Origin: Natronomonas salina
GTDB lineage: Archaea; Halobacteriota; Halobacteria; Halobacteriales; Haloarculaceae
Assembly (NCBI RefSeq): GCF_013391105.1
Contig: NZ_CP058335.1
Coordinates: 1,736,001-1,800,000 of the forward strand
Reading direction: 5' to 3'
DNA: 64,000 nucleotides
The translations under genes and the position numbers were made by a program. Below the pieces are notes generated by a model, which was given only the letters and a program-made list of their open reading frames with translations, ran no database searches and had not been told where the DNA came from. Numbering within the stretch: position 1 is the first letter of the stretch; each line of letters starts with the position of its first letter. Positions 24,557 through 61,737 of the stretch are shown here, piece by piece.

Positions 24557-24576
24557 ACGAGCCCGACGGGATTTGA
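24557..24576 (+). repeat. Right attachment repeat, inside tRNA-Arg
   Basis: Twenty bases are identical to 10319-10338. All but the first base lie inside the tRNA gene (discriminator, 3' acceptor strand, part of the T arm), so integration keeps the tRNA intact. Confidence 0.85.
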
Positions 24577-24630
24577 ACCCGCGACATCTTGGTCCGGAAC
24601 CAAGCACTCTGTCCACTGAGCTACGGGCTC
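24558..24630 (-). tRNA. tRNA-Arg, anticodon CCG
   Basis: Read on the minus strand, it folds as a full cloverleaf of 73 bases. The acceptor stem pairs GAGCCCG with CGGGCTC. The D stem is GCTC/GAGT, the anticodon stem is CTTGG/CCAAG with loop TTCCGGA and anticodon CCG, and the T arm is GCGGG-TTCAAAT-CCCGT. The discriminator is G and CCA is not encoded. It serves CGG arginine codons. Its 3' end is the integration target of the 14.3-kb element on its left. Confidence 0.95.
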
Positions 24631-50197: not shown

Positions 50198-50689
50198 ATG
50201 AGCATGGACTCAATCGAAGACCTGTTCGAGCACCAGCTGGAGGACATCTACTTCGCCGAGAACGAGCTCCTGGACGCCCTCGAGGAGCTCGCAGAGCAGA
50301 CCGAGAACGAGGAGATCGCGTCGGCCTTCGAGGAGCACCACGAGGAGACCGAGGGCCACGTCGACCGCCTCGAGGAGGTCTTCGACATCATCGGCGAGCC
50401 GCCGGAGACCGAGGAGTGCGAGGCGATCCAGGGACTCGTCGAGGAGCACGAGTCGTTCCTCGACGAGGACCCCGAACAGCACATCCTCGACGTCCACAAC
50501 ATCAACGCCGCCGAGAAGACCGAGCACTACGAGATCGCGGCCTACGGGAACCTCGCGTTCCTGGCCGACCAGCTCGGCTACGACGAGGCGGCCGACCTGC
50601 TGGGCCAGAACCTCGAGGAGGAGAAGGAGGCCCTCGAGAAGCTCAAGGACCTCACCGAGTCCTACGACTACCAGCAGATCCCCGCGTAA
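50198..50689 (+). CDS. Ferritin-like DUF892 (YciE/YciF) protein
   Basis: The 163 residues start from ATG 50198. A TATA-like TATACTAAT box about 30 bases upstream supports this start over 50090. It is a four-helix ferritin-like bundle with carboxylate/His positions: FAENELLDALEELAEQTENE, EEHHEETEGHVDRLEEVF, EKTEHYEIAAYGNLAFLADQ and EEEKEALEKLKDL. The bacterial YciE/F relatives are stress-induced and bind metal. It is very acidic, as expected of a halophile. Confidence 0.92.
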   Translation: MSMDSIEDLFEHQLEDIYFAENELLDALEELAEQTENEEIASAFEEHHEETEGHVDRLEEVFDIIGEPPETEECEAIQGLVEEHESFLDEDPEQHILDVHNINAAEKTEHYEIAAYGNLAFLADQLGYDEAADLLGQNLEEEKEALEKLKDLTESYDYQQIPA

Positions 50690-50753: not shown

Positions 50754-51638
50754 ATGGTCGAGGTCCCGCCGGAGGTCGAGCAGGTGTCCGAGGAGTACAG
50801 CCAGCTCGCCGAACCGGCCGCCTGGGGCATCTTCGCGTTCGTCGTCGCCTACCTCGTCGGACAGCTGGTGGTCAGGCCGGCCATCATGCGCGTCATCCGC
50901 CGGCGCAACCAGCGGAACCCGACGCTCGTCGACGCCGTCGGTCGGTACACGCGGCTGGCGATCCTCGTCCTCGCGGCGATCATCGGCCTCGCGTTCTCCG
51001 GGTACGGCGACCTCCTCTCGGGGTCGGCGCTCGTCATCGCGGCAGCGACGCTGGCGCTGGGCGTCGCCGGCCAGGAGGTCATCGGCGACCTCGTCAGCGG
51101 CCTCTTCCTCGTCGTCGACCCGGACTTCAACGTCGGCGACTGGATCGAGTGGGAGGAGGGCGCTGGCGTCGTCGAGACCATCCGGTTCCGGGTGACGCGC
51201 GTCCGGACCGCCGACAACCAGGTCATCGTCGTTCCCAACACCACGCTCGCGACGTCGGCAGTGACCCACCCATACAACCGCAACCGGATCCGCATCGGCG
51301 CCGAGTTCGGCATCTCCTACGACGACAGCATCGACGCCGCGGCGACGGCGCTCCGCGAGGAGGTCGAAGAACTGGAGGGCGTCCTCGAGACGCCGCGGCC
51401 CCAGGTGGTCGTCGAGGACCTCGGGGACAGCGCCGTCCACCTCCGCGTCTTCTTCTGGCTGGAGGACCCGACGCGGAAGAACGTCATCAGGACGCGGTCG
51501 ACGTACATCCGTCGGGTCAAGGAGCGCCTCGAGGCGGCGGGCATCGGCGTCAGTCCGCCCTCCGAACACGATCTCTCGGGGGCCCTCCACATCGACGGTG
51601 ACCGGGACCCGGGTCCGGACCCGGGCTCCGAGCCCTGA
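50754..51638 (+). CDS. MscS-family mechanosensitive channel
   Basis: ATG 50754 gives 294 residues. Three N-terminal helices are seen, the third with the Ala/Gly-rich pore pattern (ALVIAAATLALGVAGQEVIG DLVSG, about 94-118). The beta domain follows (NVGDWIEWEEGAGVVETI, RTADNQVIVVPNTTLATSAV), then the alpha/beta C-terminal vestibule domain. The last 30 residues are Asp/Pro/Gly-rich. It opens under membrane tension to release solutes upon dilution, a core need of halophiles. It lies 64 bases after the DUF892 gene. Confidence 0.94.
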   Translation: MVEVPPEVEQVSEEYSQLAEPAAWGIFAFVVAYLVGQLVVRPAIMRVIRRRNQRNPTLVDAVGRYTRLAILVLAAIIGLAFSGYGDLLSGSALVIAAATLALGVAGQEVIGDLVSGLFLVVDPDFNVGDWIEWEEGAGVVETIRFRVTRVRTADNQVIVVPNTTLATSAVTHPYNRNRIRIGAEFGISYDDSIDAAATALREEVEELEGVLETPRPQVVVEDLGDSAVHLRVFFWLEDPTRKNVIRTRSTYIRRVKERLEAAGIGVSPPSEHDLSGALHIDGDRDPGPDPGSEP

Positions 51639-53530: not shown

Positions 53531-55252
53531 TCAGTCCTTCCTGACGAAGCGGCCCTGGTCGTCGCGCTCCAGGTTCTCCGAGGAGTTCTTGCCGCCGCGA
53601 CTCCGGTCCTCGTCAGTCAGCCCGCTATCGCTGTCGTCCTCCTCACCTTCGTCGGACAGCGCTTCGGACTGTTCGTCGGCCTGGCCCTCGGACTGCTCGT
53701 CGGTCCGCTCTTGTGACTGCTGTTCCGCCTGCTCTCCGAGTTCCTGGCTCTCTCCTTCCTCGGACTCCTGGTCCTCCTCCGCTCGACCGCTCTGTTCCGC
53801 CTGGTCTGCAGTTCGGTTCTGCTCGGTTTCGGGCTCCTCCTGACGGTCGTCCCTTTCGCGGTCGGCGTCGCCCTGTTCCTGCTGGCCACCCGTTTCCTGC
53901 TCGTGCTCCCCTCCGTCTCGTTCCTCGTCCAATCGCTGTGCGTCCCGGCCCCACGGCTCGGCGTTCCGGCCCTGCTGGCCGCGGCCCTGTGAGCCAGGGG
54001 CTTGATCTCGCGAGTGCTGGCCGCCCGTCCGCTGCCGGTCCTGCTCCGGGGAGTGTTGATTAGTTGGCCTGCCCTGCTGTGTTCCTCCCGATCGGTGCCC
54101 ACTGTGACCGCCCGACGGGGCGTTCTGGTGGCTCTGTCGCTCCGGTCGACCCTGCCGACCGGCGGCCTGTCCCTGGTGGCTCTGCGGTCCGGACTGGACG
54201 GGACGTTGGTTCACCTGGGACTGCTGCTGGCGGCCACCCCGCTGTCCCGACTGATCGGCCTTCGGCGGGAGCGCCTCGTGACCGGTGGGGTGCTGACTGC
54301 GCCCCTGCCCGCCACCTTGCCGATCGGCCGAGCCACCCTGCTGGCCTCCCTGTCCCTGGAACTGCTCGCCCTGCTGTCGAGTCGGCTGGGGATTCGGCCC
54401 TCCCTGTGGAGACGGCTGTCGACCCCCGGACCTCGGCGGCTGCCGGCCGGCGGACTGCGACGGTGGCTGGTTCTGGGGTTGCGGTGGCCGTTGGCCGCCG
54501 GAGGGCTGGGGCTGCTGGCCCTGGCCCGACGGCCCGGACTGTCGCTGTCCACCCTGTCGACGCTGCCCTCCCTGCGGTTCCTGCGGTCGTCCCCCCGTGG
54601 GCTGCTGGCCCTGTGGCGTCTGTTGGCTCTGCGGTGGCTGTCGGTTCTGCGGTGGCTGTTGGGCTTGCCGAGGAACCTGTCCCTCCGGCGGTCGCTGGCC
54701 CGCCGGGGGCTGGGTACCGCGGTTCTGCTGCCCGCCGGGCGACGATCGGTGGCTGACGGCCTGTTGCTCCGGGGGATGCTGCCCTTGAGGCGGCGGTCCG
54801 CCCTGCTGACCGGACTGCTGCTGTCCACCGGGTGGCCGACTGGGTCGCTGTCCCGACTGCGGCTGGTTACCAGGGTGGCCTCCGGACTGTGGAGGTTGCT
54901 GACCCTGGTGGTGATGCTGCTGACTGGACTGGTGCTGTCGTCCCCGAGTCTGGTCCTGAGCAGCAGGGGGCTCGCCCCGCGTCCCGCCCTGCTGGACACC
55001 GGACTGCTGTCCACCCTGCTGTTGTGGCGCCGGTTGGCCGCCTTGCTGGCCCCGGCGGGGCTCGTTCGAGCTGCCCTGAGGAGGTTGCTGCCTCTCACCT
55101 GGCTGGCCGGATTGGGATGGCGGGTACTGCTGTCCACCTTGCTGCTCTCTGCCCCTGCCCTGCTGGTCCGGCGGCTGCCGACCGCCCGACTGGTCGCGTC
55201 GGCCACCGTGCTGTCCGCCTCGGCCCTGGGTACCGCGGTCCTGCTGGTGCAT
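53531..55252 (-). CDS. Long Gln/Gly-rich, prion-like disordered protein
   Basis: ATG 55252 gives 573 residues. About 400 residues are built almost wholly from Gln, Gly, Pro, Arg, Ser and His (repeated QGGQQ, GQQP, PPQ, QSG), without any hydrophobic core. The last 150 residues turn into Glu/Asp/Gln-rich repeats and end with a short mixed tail (ENLERDDQGRFVRKD). There is no signal peptide or membrane helix. A GTTTAATC TATA-like box lies about 40 bases upstream on the minus strand, supporting this strand over the leucine-rich antisense frame. A second protein of this kind lies at 60162. Phase separation, matrix or desiccation protection are guesses. Confidence 0.72.
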   Translation of the reverse strand: MHQQDRGTQGRGGQHGGRRDQSGGRQPPDQQGRGREQQGGQQYPPSQSGQPGERQQPPQGSSNEPRRGQQGGQPAPQQQGGQQSGVQQGGTRGEPPAAQDQTRGRQHQSSQQHHHQGQQPPQSGGHPGNQPQSGQRPSRPPGGQQQSGQQGGPPPQGQHPPEQQAVSHRSSPGGQQNRGTQPPAGQRPPEGQVPRQAQQPPQNRQPPQSQQTPQGQQPTGGRPQEPQGGQRRQGGQRQSGPSGQGQQPQPSGGQRPPQPQNQPPSQSAGRQPPRSGGRQPSPQGGPNPQPTRQQGEQFQGQGGQQGGSADRQGGGQGRSQHPTGHEALPPKADQSGQRGGRQQQSQVNQRPVQSGPQSHQGQAAGRQGRPERQSHQNAPSGGHSGHRSGGTQQGRPTNQHSPEQDRQRTGGQHSRDQAPGSQGRGQQGRNAEPWGRDAQRLDEERDGGEHEQETGGQQEQGDADRERDDRQEEPETEQNRTADQAEQSGRAEEDQESEEGESQELGEQAEQQSQERTDEQSEGQADEQSEALSDEGEEDDSDSGLTDEDRSRGGKNSSENLERDDQGRFVRKD

Positions 55253-56610: not shown

Positions 56611-56925
56611 ATGATGTGGCAGGACTTCATCTTCCTGGCGGGGAGTTCCCTGTCGGTGATGTTCCTCTACCCGACCCTCCGTGATACGGCAGCGCGCGTC
56701 CCGCGGGCGACGAGCATCCCGTCGATGACCATCGGCGCCGTCTACTCGATGACGTTCTTCACGATGGGGATGACGTTCTCCGCGCTGGGCTCCTTCGGCG
56801 CCTGCACCATGTGGTCGCTCATCGCGCTCCTCCGTGCCCCCGACGACAGTTCGCTCCGTGAGACCATCGCCGCCCGACTCGGTCGACTGGAGGAAGACCT
56901 GGACGCGGCTCCGAACGGTAACTGA
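56611..56925 (+). CDS. Membrane protein, 104 aa
   Basis: ATG 56611 (a second ATG follows immediately) gives two to three hydrophobic helices (FIFLAGSSLSVMFLYPTL, MTIGAVYSMTFFTMGMTFSA, GSFGACTMWSLIAL), unusually rich in Met and Thr. A short amphipathic helix with acidic tail follows (LRETIAARLGRLEEDLD). The 215-base upstream spacer is AT-rich, including ATTACTTAACCC, a possible promoter. Unnamed family. Confidence 0.7.
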   Translation: MMWQDFIFLAGSSLSVMFLYPTLRDTAARVPRATSIPSMTIGAVYSMTFFTMGMTFSALGSFGACTMWSLIALLRAPDDSSLRETIAARLGRLEEDLDAAPNGN

Positions 56926-57103: not shown

Positions 57104-57798
57104 TTACTCGTCGGGCTGGTACTCGACGGTGACCGTCTGCATCCCGTAGATGTCGTCCCAGTCCTTGTCCTGGTCCATCAGCAGCACCAGGAGCTCGTGT
57201 TCGCCCGGCTCGGCGCCGTTCTCCTCGAAGGCGCCCTGCGGCACGGTCAGGGTGTACCTGCCGGAGGACTCGTGTGAGAGCTCCGGGGAGCGCTCGACGA
57301 GCGCGCCCTCGACGTAGGTGAACCGGGAGTCGTTCTCTGTGGCGGCGTCGAGGTAGACCAGGAAGAACGGCTCCCCCCGGACCGTCCCGTGCTCCGCCGG
57401 GTCGACGTCCGGCATCGACGTGTTCGCCGTGACGTCGAGGCGGAACGAGGCCGATCCGCCGTCGCCGCCACCGTACCCGGTGACGTCGATCGACTGGATT
57501 CGCTCGCCCTCTTCCTCGTCCATGTTGTTCTGCAGCGGCGTGTTCGGTTGCTCCGGTTCCGACCAGGACTCCTGTGGGGTCGCGGTCGGCGTCGCCGTAG
57601 CCGTCGCAGTCGCAGTCGGCGTCGCGGTCGCTGTTTCGGTCGGTCGACGTTGCTGTCGGTGTCGCCGTCTCTGTCGGCGTGGCCGTGTCGGTGGCCGTCG
57701 GATCGTCGGTCTCCTCACCGCCGCCGAAGGGGCCGACGCAGCCCCCCGAGCAAGACCAGACAGACCACACCCACCGTGATGAGAGCTCCTCGCTTCAT
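57104..57798 (-). pseudogene. Frameshifted lipoprotein gene with G-run and TPTA repeat
   Basis: From ATG 57798 the frame encodes a lipoprotein leader (MKRGALITVGVVCLVLLGG) but shifts at a run of six G (57741-57746 region), where one base fewer would give lipobox LLGGC. The next frame runs through GGGEETDDPTATDTATPTET and shifts again inside the Thr-Pro repeat (near 57640-57650). There the third frame carries the mature domain (GSASFRLDVTANTSMPDVDP, ending VTVEYQPDE). Both shifts are one extra base in the same direction. The C-terminal domain is well preserved. Either the gene is phase-variable, newly dead, or there are sequencing errors in repeats. Confidence 0.65.
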
Positions 57799-60161: not shown

Positions 60162-61460
60162 CTATCGCTGCTGCTTGTCGATGTCCTGGTTGATGGGCGA
60201 GTGCTCGGCGTCCATCTCGTGGGCGTGGCCCTGGCTGTACTGCTGCTGGCCCTGGAACTGGCCGGGGAACTGCTCGGCCTGCTGCTGGACGTCCTGCTGG
60301 CCGGGGCGACCGCCCTGCTGCTGTTGGGTGGGCTCACCGAAGGACTGCTCGCCGCCCACGTACGCGTCGTTCTGCTCGTGGCGGGCTTCGCCACCGTACT
60401 GGAGCCCCTGGTCGACCTGCTGGTTGCCCTGGCGCTGCTGGCCGTACTGCTGGCCCTGCTGGTTCTGTCGGCCCTGCTGGTTCTGCTGACGCCGCTGTCT
60501 GCCCTGCTGCTGGCCGAACTGTCGGGACTGGCCACCCTGCTGGCCACCGCTCTGCTGCTGTCCCTGCTGGGTCGACCCCTGCTGCGTCCGGTAGTTCTGG
60601 GGCGTCCCGTGATTCTGCTGGCTCTGCTGATTCTGCTGGGACCGCTGGGACGAGCCCTGCTGGGACTGCTGGCGCTGGTCGTCGCTCGGCTGGCTCAGGT
60701 AGCTCTGCTGGCCACCCAGGTGCGTCCGCTGGCCCTGGTCCTGCTGAGAGCGCTGTCCCTGCTGACTACCGAACTGGTTCTGCTGGCCCTGGTTGGACTG
60801 CTGGCCGCCGAACTGGGTCTGGTCCCGCTGCTGGCTGTATTGCTGGGACTGGCCACCCTGCTGCTGTCCCTGCTGGGTCGAACCCTGCTGCGTCCGGTAG
60901 TTCTCGGCCGTCCCGTGCGGCTGTTGGCTCTGCTGGTGCTGCTGACCCTGCTGGTTCTGCTGGCTTCCGAACTGGTCCTGGTGGCCACCGAACTGCCGCT
61001 GCTGGTTCTGGCTCACTTTCTGCTGGCGGCCACCCTGGGACCTCTGGCCGGACTGCTGGCGCTGGCCCGACTGCTGGCCGTGCTGTCGGTACTGGTCCTG
61101 GCCGGACTGGCGGCCCTGCTGGGACCCCTGGGAGTGGGTGGGCTGCTCGGAGAGTTCCTCCTGTCGCTGCTGCTGAATCTCCTGTCGCAGCGGTTCCTGG
61201 GACTGCTGGTTCTGACGACCCTGCTGGTTCTGCTGGCCGCCGAACTGTTGTTGCCGATTCCTGTTCTGACTCTGCTGATGCTGTCCCTGCCGCTGGTTCT
61301 GCCCCTGGTGCTGCCGATTCTGGCCCCCCTGTCCCTGCTGGCTATACCCCTGCTGGTACTGCTGACCGTACTGCCGTTGCTGGTCGTCCCTCCCGTCCTC
61401 GTCGTCCTGGCCTTCCCGATACGCCTGCGGATTCGCGTGTCGATGTGGATTCTGACTCAC
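60162..61460 (-). CDS. Second Gln-rich, prion-like protein with internal repeats
   Basis: The start was set at GTG 61460 (MSQNPHRHANPQAYREG), since the frame back to 61526 has a hydrophobic, unrelated start. The 432 residues are dominated by Gln with Gly, Arg, Ser, Asn, His and Tyr. A 102-residue unit is duplicated (NYRTQQGSTQQGQQQ occurs twice, 306 bases apart). The C-terminus has a more ordered segment (QYSQGHAHEMDAEHSPINQD). Tyr/Arg/Gln-rich composition is that of phase-separating proteins. It has no export signal. Most Gln codons are CAG, so the antisense strand reads as a leucine-rich frame, which is rejected. Confidence 0.7.
   Translation of the reverse strand: MSQNPHRHANPQAYREGQDDEDGRDDQQRQYGQQYQQGYSQQGQGGQNRQHQGQNQRQGQHQQSQNRNRQQQFGGQQNQQGRQNQQSQEPLRQEIQQQRQEELSEQPTHSQGSQQGRQSGQDQYRQHGQQSGQRQQSGQRSQGGRQQKVSQNQQRQFGGHQDQFGSQQNQQGQQHQQSQQPHGTAENYRTQQGSTQQGQQQGGQSQQYSQQRDQTQFGGQQSNQGQQNQFGSQQGQRSQQDQGQRTHLGGQQSYLSQPSDDQRQQSQQGSSQRSQQNQQSQQNHGTPQNYRTQQGSTQQGQQQSGGQQGGQSRQFGQQQGRQRRQQNQQGRQNQQGQQYGQQRQGNQQVDQGLQYGGEARHEQNDAYVGGEQSFGEPTQQQQGGRPGQQDVQQQAEQFPGQFQGQQQYSQGHAHEMDAEHSPINQDIDKQQR
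60552..60611 (+). repeat. Internal repeat in the Gln-rich gene, copy A
   Basis: About 60 bases are almost identical to 60858-60917, encoding HGTPQNYRTQQGSTQQGQQQ on the minus strand. The spacing of 306 bases (102 codons) keeps the frame, as expected of a segmental duplication within the coding sequence. Confidence 0.7.
60858..60917 (+). repeat. Internal repeat in the Gln-rich gene, copy B
   Basis: Copy of 60552-60611, differing at a few bases and encoding HGTAENYRTQQGSTQQGQQQ on the minus strand. Confidence 0.7.
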
Positions 61461-61737
61461 GGTGATCACAGGCGGGGAGTACCCGCTACCCGGAACGACG
61501 CCCGGAACCCGGATAAAGCGGTCCAATAGTTTCCCTGGTAAGGTCGCCTCGCCGCTACCAAATCGGGGATTACGGCCCCGTCAGCGGCGTCGAATCCGCC
61601 CGCGAGCGCCGGGTCTCGCGAGTACGGTCGACGTAACGGCGAGCGTGAACGGAGTGGTCACGACCGGGCAAACACGCTATCGGCTCGATTAGCCAGCCGG
61701 CAAACACGGCTTTCGGCGCACGTAACGACGTACCGAT

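Follow-up and report, generated by a model that had tools for sequence, protein, structure and literature searches.

The window, a stretch of 64,000 nucleotides (G000:C1:1736001-1800000), comes from a haloarchaeal genome of 3.75 Mb in the family Haloarculaceae, which includes Halosimplex. On its minus strand, an uninterrupted ORF (P0001) encodes 432 amino acids from a GTG start codon at 61460, or possibly from an in-frame GTG at 61469. The features that concern P0001 and a second Gln-rich gene (P0002) are as follows.

60162..61460, minus strand: Gln/Gly/Arg-rich protein P0001, 432 aa, predicted to be disordered (ORF, codon score, composition, structure prediction)
60330..60410, minus strand: motif A (QGLQYGGEARHEQNDAYVGGEQSFGEP), common to Gln-rich proteins of other genera
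60547..60648, minus strand: 34-residue duplication, copy 2
60853..60954, minus strand: 34-residue duplication, copy 1 (306 nt from copy 2, 85% identical)
61511..61518, minus strand: TATA-box-like CTTTATCC, about 50 nt upstream of the P0001 start (consensus resemblance only)
53531..55252, minus strand: second Gln-rich protein P0002, 573 aa (ORF, codon score, composition)
53534..53623, minus strand: motif B (GLTDEDRSRGGKNSSENLERDDQGRFVRKD), C-terminal, common to Gln-rich proteins of other genera

Coding status and internal duplication of P0001

Both strands are open at the P0001 locus. The P0001 frame has the highest codon score among the six frames (GC3 0.87, LOD +0.34), compared with a LOD of +0.20 for the Leu-rich ORF that overlaps it on the plus strand (60201-61529). 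In homologous pairs from other genomes, pN/pS is 0.35-0.57 in the sense frame, the lowest of the frames, and 1.06-1.55 in the codon-aligned antisense frame of the same pairs; dN/dS in homologous pairs is 0.19-0.49. Because the best codon score coincides with constraint on the sense frame and none on the antisense frame, P0001 is a coding gene of the minus strand, under purifying selection in its family. The Leu-rich ORF was ruled out as a gene by its lower codon score and by the lack of antisense constraint in relatives; it is a by-product of the CAG codons opposite. Of the Gln codons in P0001, 161 are CAG and 6 are CAA, a ratio like that of other genes, and the Gln residues are interspersed, with no run longer than four, which rules out a slipped CAG microsatellite or polyglutamine tract. 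An assembly artefact is unlikely because the frame is open across 432 codons and has relatives in other genomes. Thus, the Gln-rich ORF proposed by the first-pass annotation is real.

The same annotation described a duplicated 102-residue unit at 306-nt spacing. The spacing is correct, but the duplicated unit is a segment of 34 residues (102 nt) with the core QQSQQxHGTxxNYRTQQGSTQQGQQQ, the copies of which lie 102 residues apart. They are identical at 87 of 102 nucleotides, compared with a maximum of 71 among 300 codon shuffles, and the remainder of the 306-nt offset shows background identity (0.24-0.55), so that P0001 contains a single small internal duplication.

Composition, predicted disorder and comparison with known systems

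P0001 consists of 167 Gln, 63 Gly, 34 Ser, 33 Arg (7.6%), 21 Asn (4.9%), 13 Tyr (3.0%), 2 Lys, no Cys and other residues. The Gln content of 38.7% (167/432) compares with a median of 2.4%, and the pI of 9.2 with a median of 4.4, among 460 proteins predicted by the gene finder at this and related loci. Tyr, in which the protein had been called rich, is not enriched in absolute terms. Charged residues make up 15% of the sequence. A GRAVY of -2.26, an ILVM content of 3.2%, a charge-hydropathy relation on the disordered side and an AlphaFold prediction from the single sequence (mean pLDDT 48, pTM 0.22) together point to a disordered protein.

Hydrophilins are defined by a Gly content above 6% and a hydrophilicity index above 1 (PMC11277543). 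P0001, with 14.6% Gly and an index of 2.26, lies above both values and differs from hydrophilins and LEA-like proteins by its 39% Gln, its near absence of Lys and its lack of any Pfam match. The low-complexity regions published for haloarchaea are strongly acidic, with 34% D/E on average (PMC6821194); P0001 is likewise a low-complexity protein of a halophile, but it contains 7.4% D/E and is basic. Like the sticker-and-spacer domains of the FUS/FG type, it has scattered FGGQ/YGQQ-like stickers, Q/G/S spacers and Arg, but aromatics, the stickers expected in FUS-like condensates, account for just 5% (22/432) and are not conserved among relatives, in which Tyr plus Phe range from 0.5 to 5.1%. The spacing of the aromatics in P0001 is slightly more even than chance, 4.6% of shuffles being as low.

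The Michelitsch and Weissman threshold for a prion-like domain is reportedly at least 30 Q/N per window of 80 residues. The best such window of P0001 contains 44, and as a description of composition the label "prion-like" given by the first-pass annotation stands. P0001 shares predicted disorder and this Q/N content with the yeast Sup35/Ure2-type and archaeal prion-like domains, and archaeal domains of this kind that form amyloid have been reported, at least as PMC8086366 cites them (Zajkowski et al. 2021). The whole of P0001, however, is the domain: it has no folded effector domain that a switch could control, its Gln is accompanied by Gly, Arg and His rather than by Asn, charged residues are present, and all but motif A diverges fast in the family. 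A role as a prion-like amyloid with switching between heritable states is for these reasons improbable.

The basic pI of P0001, together with its Arg content and near absence of Lys, would be expected of an Arg/Gly/Gln-rich binder of nucleic acids, such as a condenser of the nucleoid or of mRNA. The wider haloarchaeal Gln-rich set is mostly basic, nearly lysine-free and cysteine-free, with the pI of relatives reaching 12; P0002, however, is acidic overall (pI 5.9), so basicity is no rule of the set, and molar KCl screens charge. No known nucleic-acid domain is present, and this role is considered rather unlikely. In other organisms, Gln-rich repetitive proteins are generally known to form matrices that are adhesive or cross-linked, but the hydrophilic body of P0001 begins at the start of the ORF with no visible Sec/Tat signal, membrane anchor or sorting signal, which makes an extracellular or cell-surface matrix protein very unlikely.

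Relatives of P0001 and P0002

Searches with the whole protein found only P0001 itself, both by HMMER in 60 genomes and by pattern plus tblastn in genome and viral contigs, because low-complexity correction hides such proteins. Comparison with Pfam (E<=10), NCBIfam (E<=0.01), PHROGs (E<=1) and PDB (E<=10) gave no match; no viral or plasmid homologue was confirmed in IMG/VR or PLSDB, where low-complexity filtering limits searches; and literature searches turned up no relevant work on haloarchaeal proteins that are Gln-rich or prion-like. Relatives were reached by a search for the codon pattern of QQxQQxQQ, the hits of which cluster in a minority of the 146 genomes of the family, and then by profiles of short C-terminal motifs. 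Motif A, short and C-terminal in P0001, was first recognized as common to P0001 and one Gln-rich protein of genome G117; its consensus is QGLQYGGEARH...VGxEQxFGxP, and the family is defined here by a C-terminal GL[QR][YF]GGxxRHxxxxxxVG inside a Gln-rich protein, as is found in P0001. The profile identifies Gln-rich proteins in 8 of the 146 genomes (G000, G117-G119, G141, G143, G145, G146) with E-values from 8e-33 to 2e-10, and in an order-wide search the next best match after the true set has an E-value of 0.006. The profiles of motifs A and B were built partly from sequences of this genome, P0001 itself among them, so that matches in this genome follow by construction and those elsewhere are the real test; for motif A these come from seven Haloarculaceae genomes that belong to Halosimplex (including H. 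pelagicum and H. salinum) and another genus, making three genera overall. In the Halosimplex relatives, motif A is the end of the protein.

The position of the motif-A gene is kept within a genus and not between genera. In G118 it lies in a chromosomal setting that in G086 and G090 is occupied by motif-B genes, with surrounding genes named by eye as thioredoxin, CysK-like, ThiI-like, methionine adenosyltransferase-like, CYTH-like and FKBP-like. All other searched members of the window's own genus lack the motif-A gene, and therefore P0001 is dispensable in its genus. This patchiness, together with the fast divergence outside motif A and the short indels that separate close relatives, is what would be expected of a product of low-complexity drift with no selected function beyond solubility. 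Such drift is unlikely, given that dN/dS in the family is below 0.5, motif A is kept across genera and the gene keeps its position within a genus. Conservation of motif A would also be needless in a nitrogen-storage protein comparable to seed prolamins or cyanophycin granules; such a protein would require few conserved positions, and P0001 has 1.74 nitrogen atoms per residue (median 1.33), but no clearly nitrogen-linked genes were seen adjoining it, and storage is judged an improbable role.

P0002 ends 4.9 kb from P0001, which bears out the report of a second Gln-rich gene 5 kb away on the same strand. Its motif B (GLTxEaRSRGGKHS...ERDxxGxF) differs from motif A and is present in 14 of the 146 family genomes (E<1e-4), and beyond this family it occurs sparsely in four others of the order; occurrence is patchy for the families of P0001 and P0002 alike. 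The stress-induced KGG repeat that motif B suggests was rejected, there being no Pfam match at E<=10. Many motif-B relatives carry a related unit, 'GGQHSA..QQRDQQGQFTGHQ' ('GGQHS...RDxxGQF'), in up to 7 copies; across the family the number ranges from 0 to 7, and it varies between sister species. Repeat expansion and length variation, which the first-pass annotation had attributed to P0001, are thus features of the P0002-type family.

That the two genes form a shared system, as was also suggested, is partly supported by their co-occurrence across genomes: motif B is present in seven of the eight motif-A genomes (p ~1e-7 if genomes are treated as independent, 0.013 if counted by genus). No other genome was found in which genes of the two types are neighbours, and their adjacency is confined to this one. 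Because at least five Gln-rich proteins are scattered in this genome, the chance of two genes lying within 6.5 kb of each other is about 0.04 (calculated for five), and proximity alone is weak evidence for a system. Two nearby candidate partners were rejected: the 113-aa gene downstream of P0001 (59744-60085) has homologues in three other genomes with no Gln-rich neighbour within 1.5 kb, and the membrane gene at 56611-56925, considered as a fixed partner of P0002-type genes, adjoins one elsewhere only in G119 among the 30 loci checked. Neighbours of osmotic or stress type in the window include an MscS channel (50754-51638) and a DUF892 ferritin-like protein (50198-50689). In the left part of the window (1-28000), GC content is 0.51-0.60, compared with 0.64-0.71 further right, and a tRNA-Arg is located at 24558-24630; this part is possibly an integrated element.

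Gln-rich tails and a possible scaffold-client arrangement

Further Gln-rich genes of this genome were found by a scan for CARCARNNNCARCAR followed by reading of the matches, and one phasin-like ORF was named by eye.

G000:C1:195996-197027: further Gln-rich protein (CARCARNNNCARCAR scan)
G000:C1:728455-729591: further Gln-rich protein (CARCARNNNCARCAR scan)
G000:C1:3631028-3631999: further Gln-rich protein (CARCARNNNCARCAR scan)
G000:C1:827385-828368: CBS-domain protein with Gln-rich N-terminus (CARCARNNNCARCAR scan)
G000:C1:831953-832995 (L218:10954-11995): phasin-like ORF, Gln-rich tail in another frame

In relatives from another genus, the phasin-like domain and the Gln-rich tail share one ORF; a relative of the phasin-like ORF had no Pfam match. 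Elsewhere, in the window, a lipoprotein-like gene (57104-57790, minus strand) is split over three frames, with its signal peptide, its lipobox with TPTETAT repeats and its mature domain in separate frames, which may stem from indels in the sequencing, from decay of the gene or from a repeat tract in it. The apparent frame splits in this gene and in the phasin-like one at 832 kb mean that indel errors may be present in the assembly; the frame of P0001 is open throughout.

Several other genera encode proteins resembling the Csp1 four-helix bundle of the copper-storage type (NCBIfam TIGR04401, E 6e-8, below its cut-off) that have Gln-rich tails, and a Gln-rich gene adjoins 10 of the 16 scored loci of this kind, compared with none of 12 loci of tail-less Csp-like paralogues (Fisher p 0.0009, kinship ignored). 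This pattern suggests that like-composed tails and scaffolds may work together; it comes from other genera, and the Csp-type partner genes are unlinked to P0001. The only Csp-like protein found in this genome matches the query weakly, with an E-value (2.3e-15) like those of the tail-less class, and the roughly 7 kb on either side of it contain no ORF with more than 12% Gln.

Acidity is the expected means by which the proteins of haloarchaea remain soluble in molar KCl, and a mostly basic set of Gln-rich disordered proteins under selection breaks this rule. The best reading of the Gln-rich set is that of apparently undescribed, patchily distributed haloarchaeal disordered proteins of hydrophilin or condensate type, perhaps forming a scaffold-client system; judged from their sequences, they are probably hydrophilin- or condensate-like helpers in very salty cells. 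P0001 itself may be, on a tentative reading, a cytoplasmic disordered Q/G/R-rich protein that remains soluble in molar salt or assembles reversibly into a condensate or gel. Counted for this explanation are the coding status and selection, the predicted disorder, the hydrophilin-like values, motif A across three genera, the Gln tails on CBS-domain and phasin-like proteins, the Csp tail-and-neighbour pattern and the neighbours of osmotic or stress type; counted against it are the few aromatics, the absence of a link between Csp-type partners and P0001, and the sister species that lack the gene. The long Q/G/R body would act in the manner of a hydrophilin or of a condensate scaffold, so that components of the cell are protected or concentrated under salt or drying stress; motif A would dock a specific partner; and Gln-tailed proteins (CBS-domain, phasin-like, Csp-like) would join the same phase as clients. 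The more specific arrangement, in which the Gln-rich proteins condense through Q/G/R contacts, each directed by its own C-terminal motif, and the Gln-tailed Csp-like, phasin-like and CBS-domain proteins enter the condensate, is speculative and somewhat unlikely. If true, it would constitute a membraneless compartment with a chemistry opposite to that of the surrounding acidic proteome. If the proteins separate into phases or are protective, they would provide a genetically tractable archaeal setting for condensates or hydrophilins under screened electrostatics, and the Csp tail-and-neighbour pattern makes recruitment through like-composed tails directly testable.

Two further observations concern other loci. 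In one genus (g6, L056-L060), the genes that surround the Gln-rich ones are of HalOD1, CBS, phasin-like and sensor type, and several have Gln-rich tails. At L219:7665-10870, within G000:C1:2868000-2886000 of this genome, a pair of neighbouring proteins of secreted type contains CAGCAGAGCCAGCAG at steps of about 174-180 nt, a spacing that suggests a repeat of roughly 58 residues.
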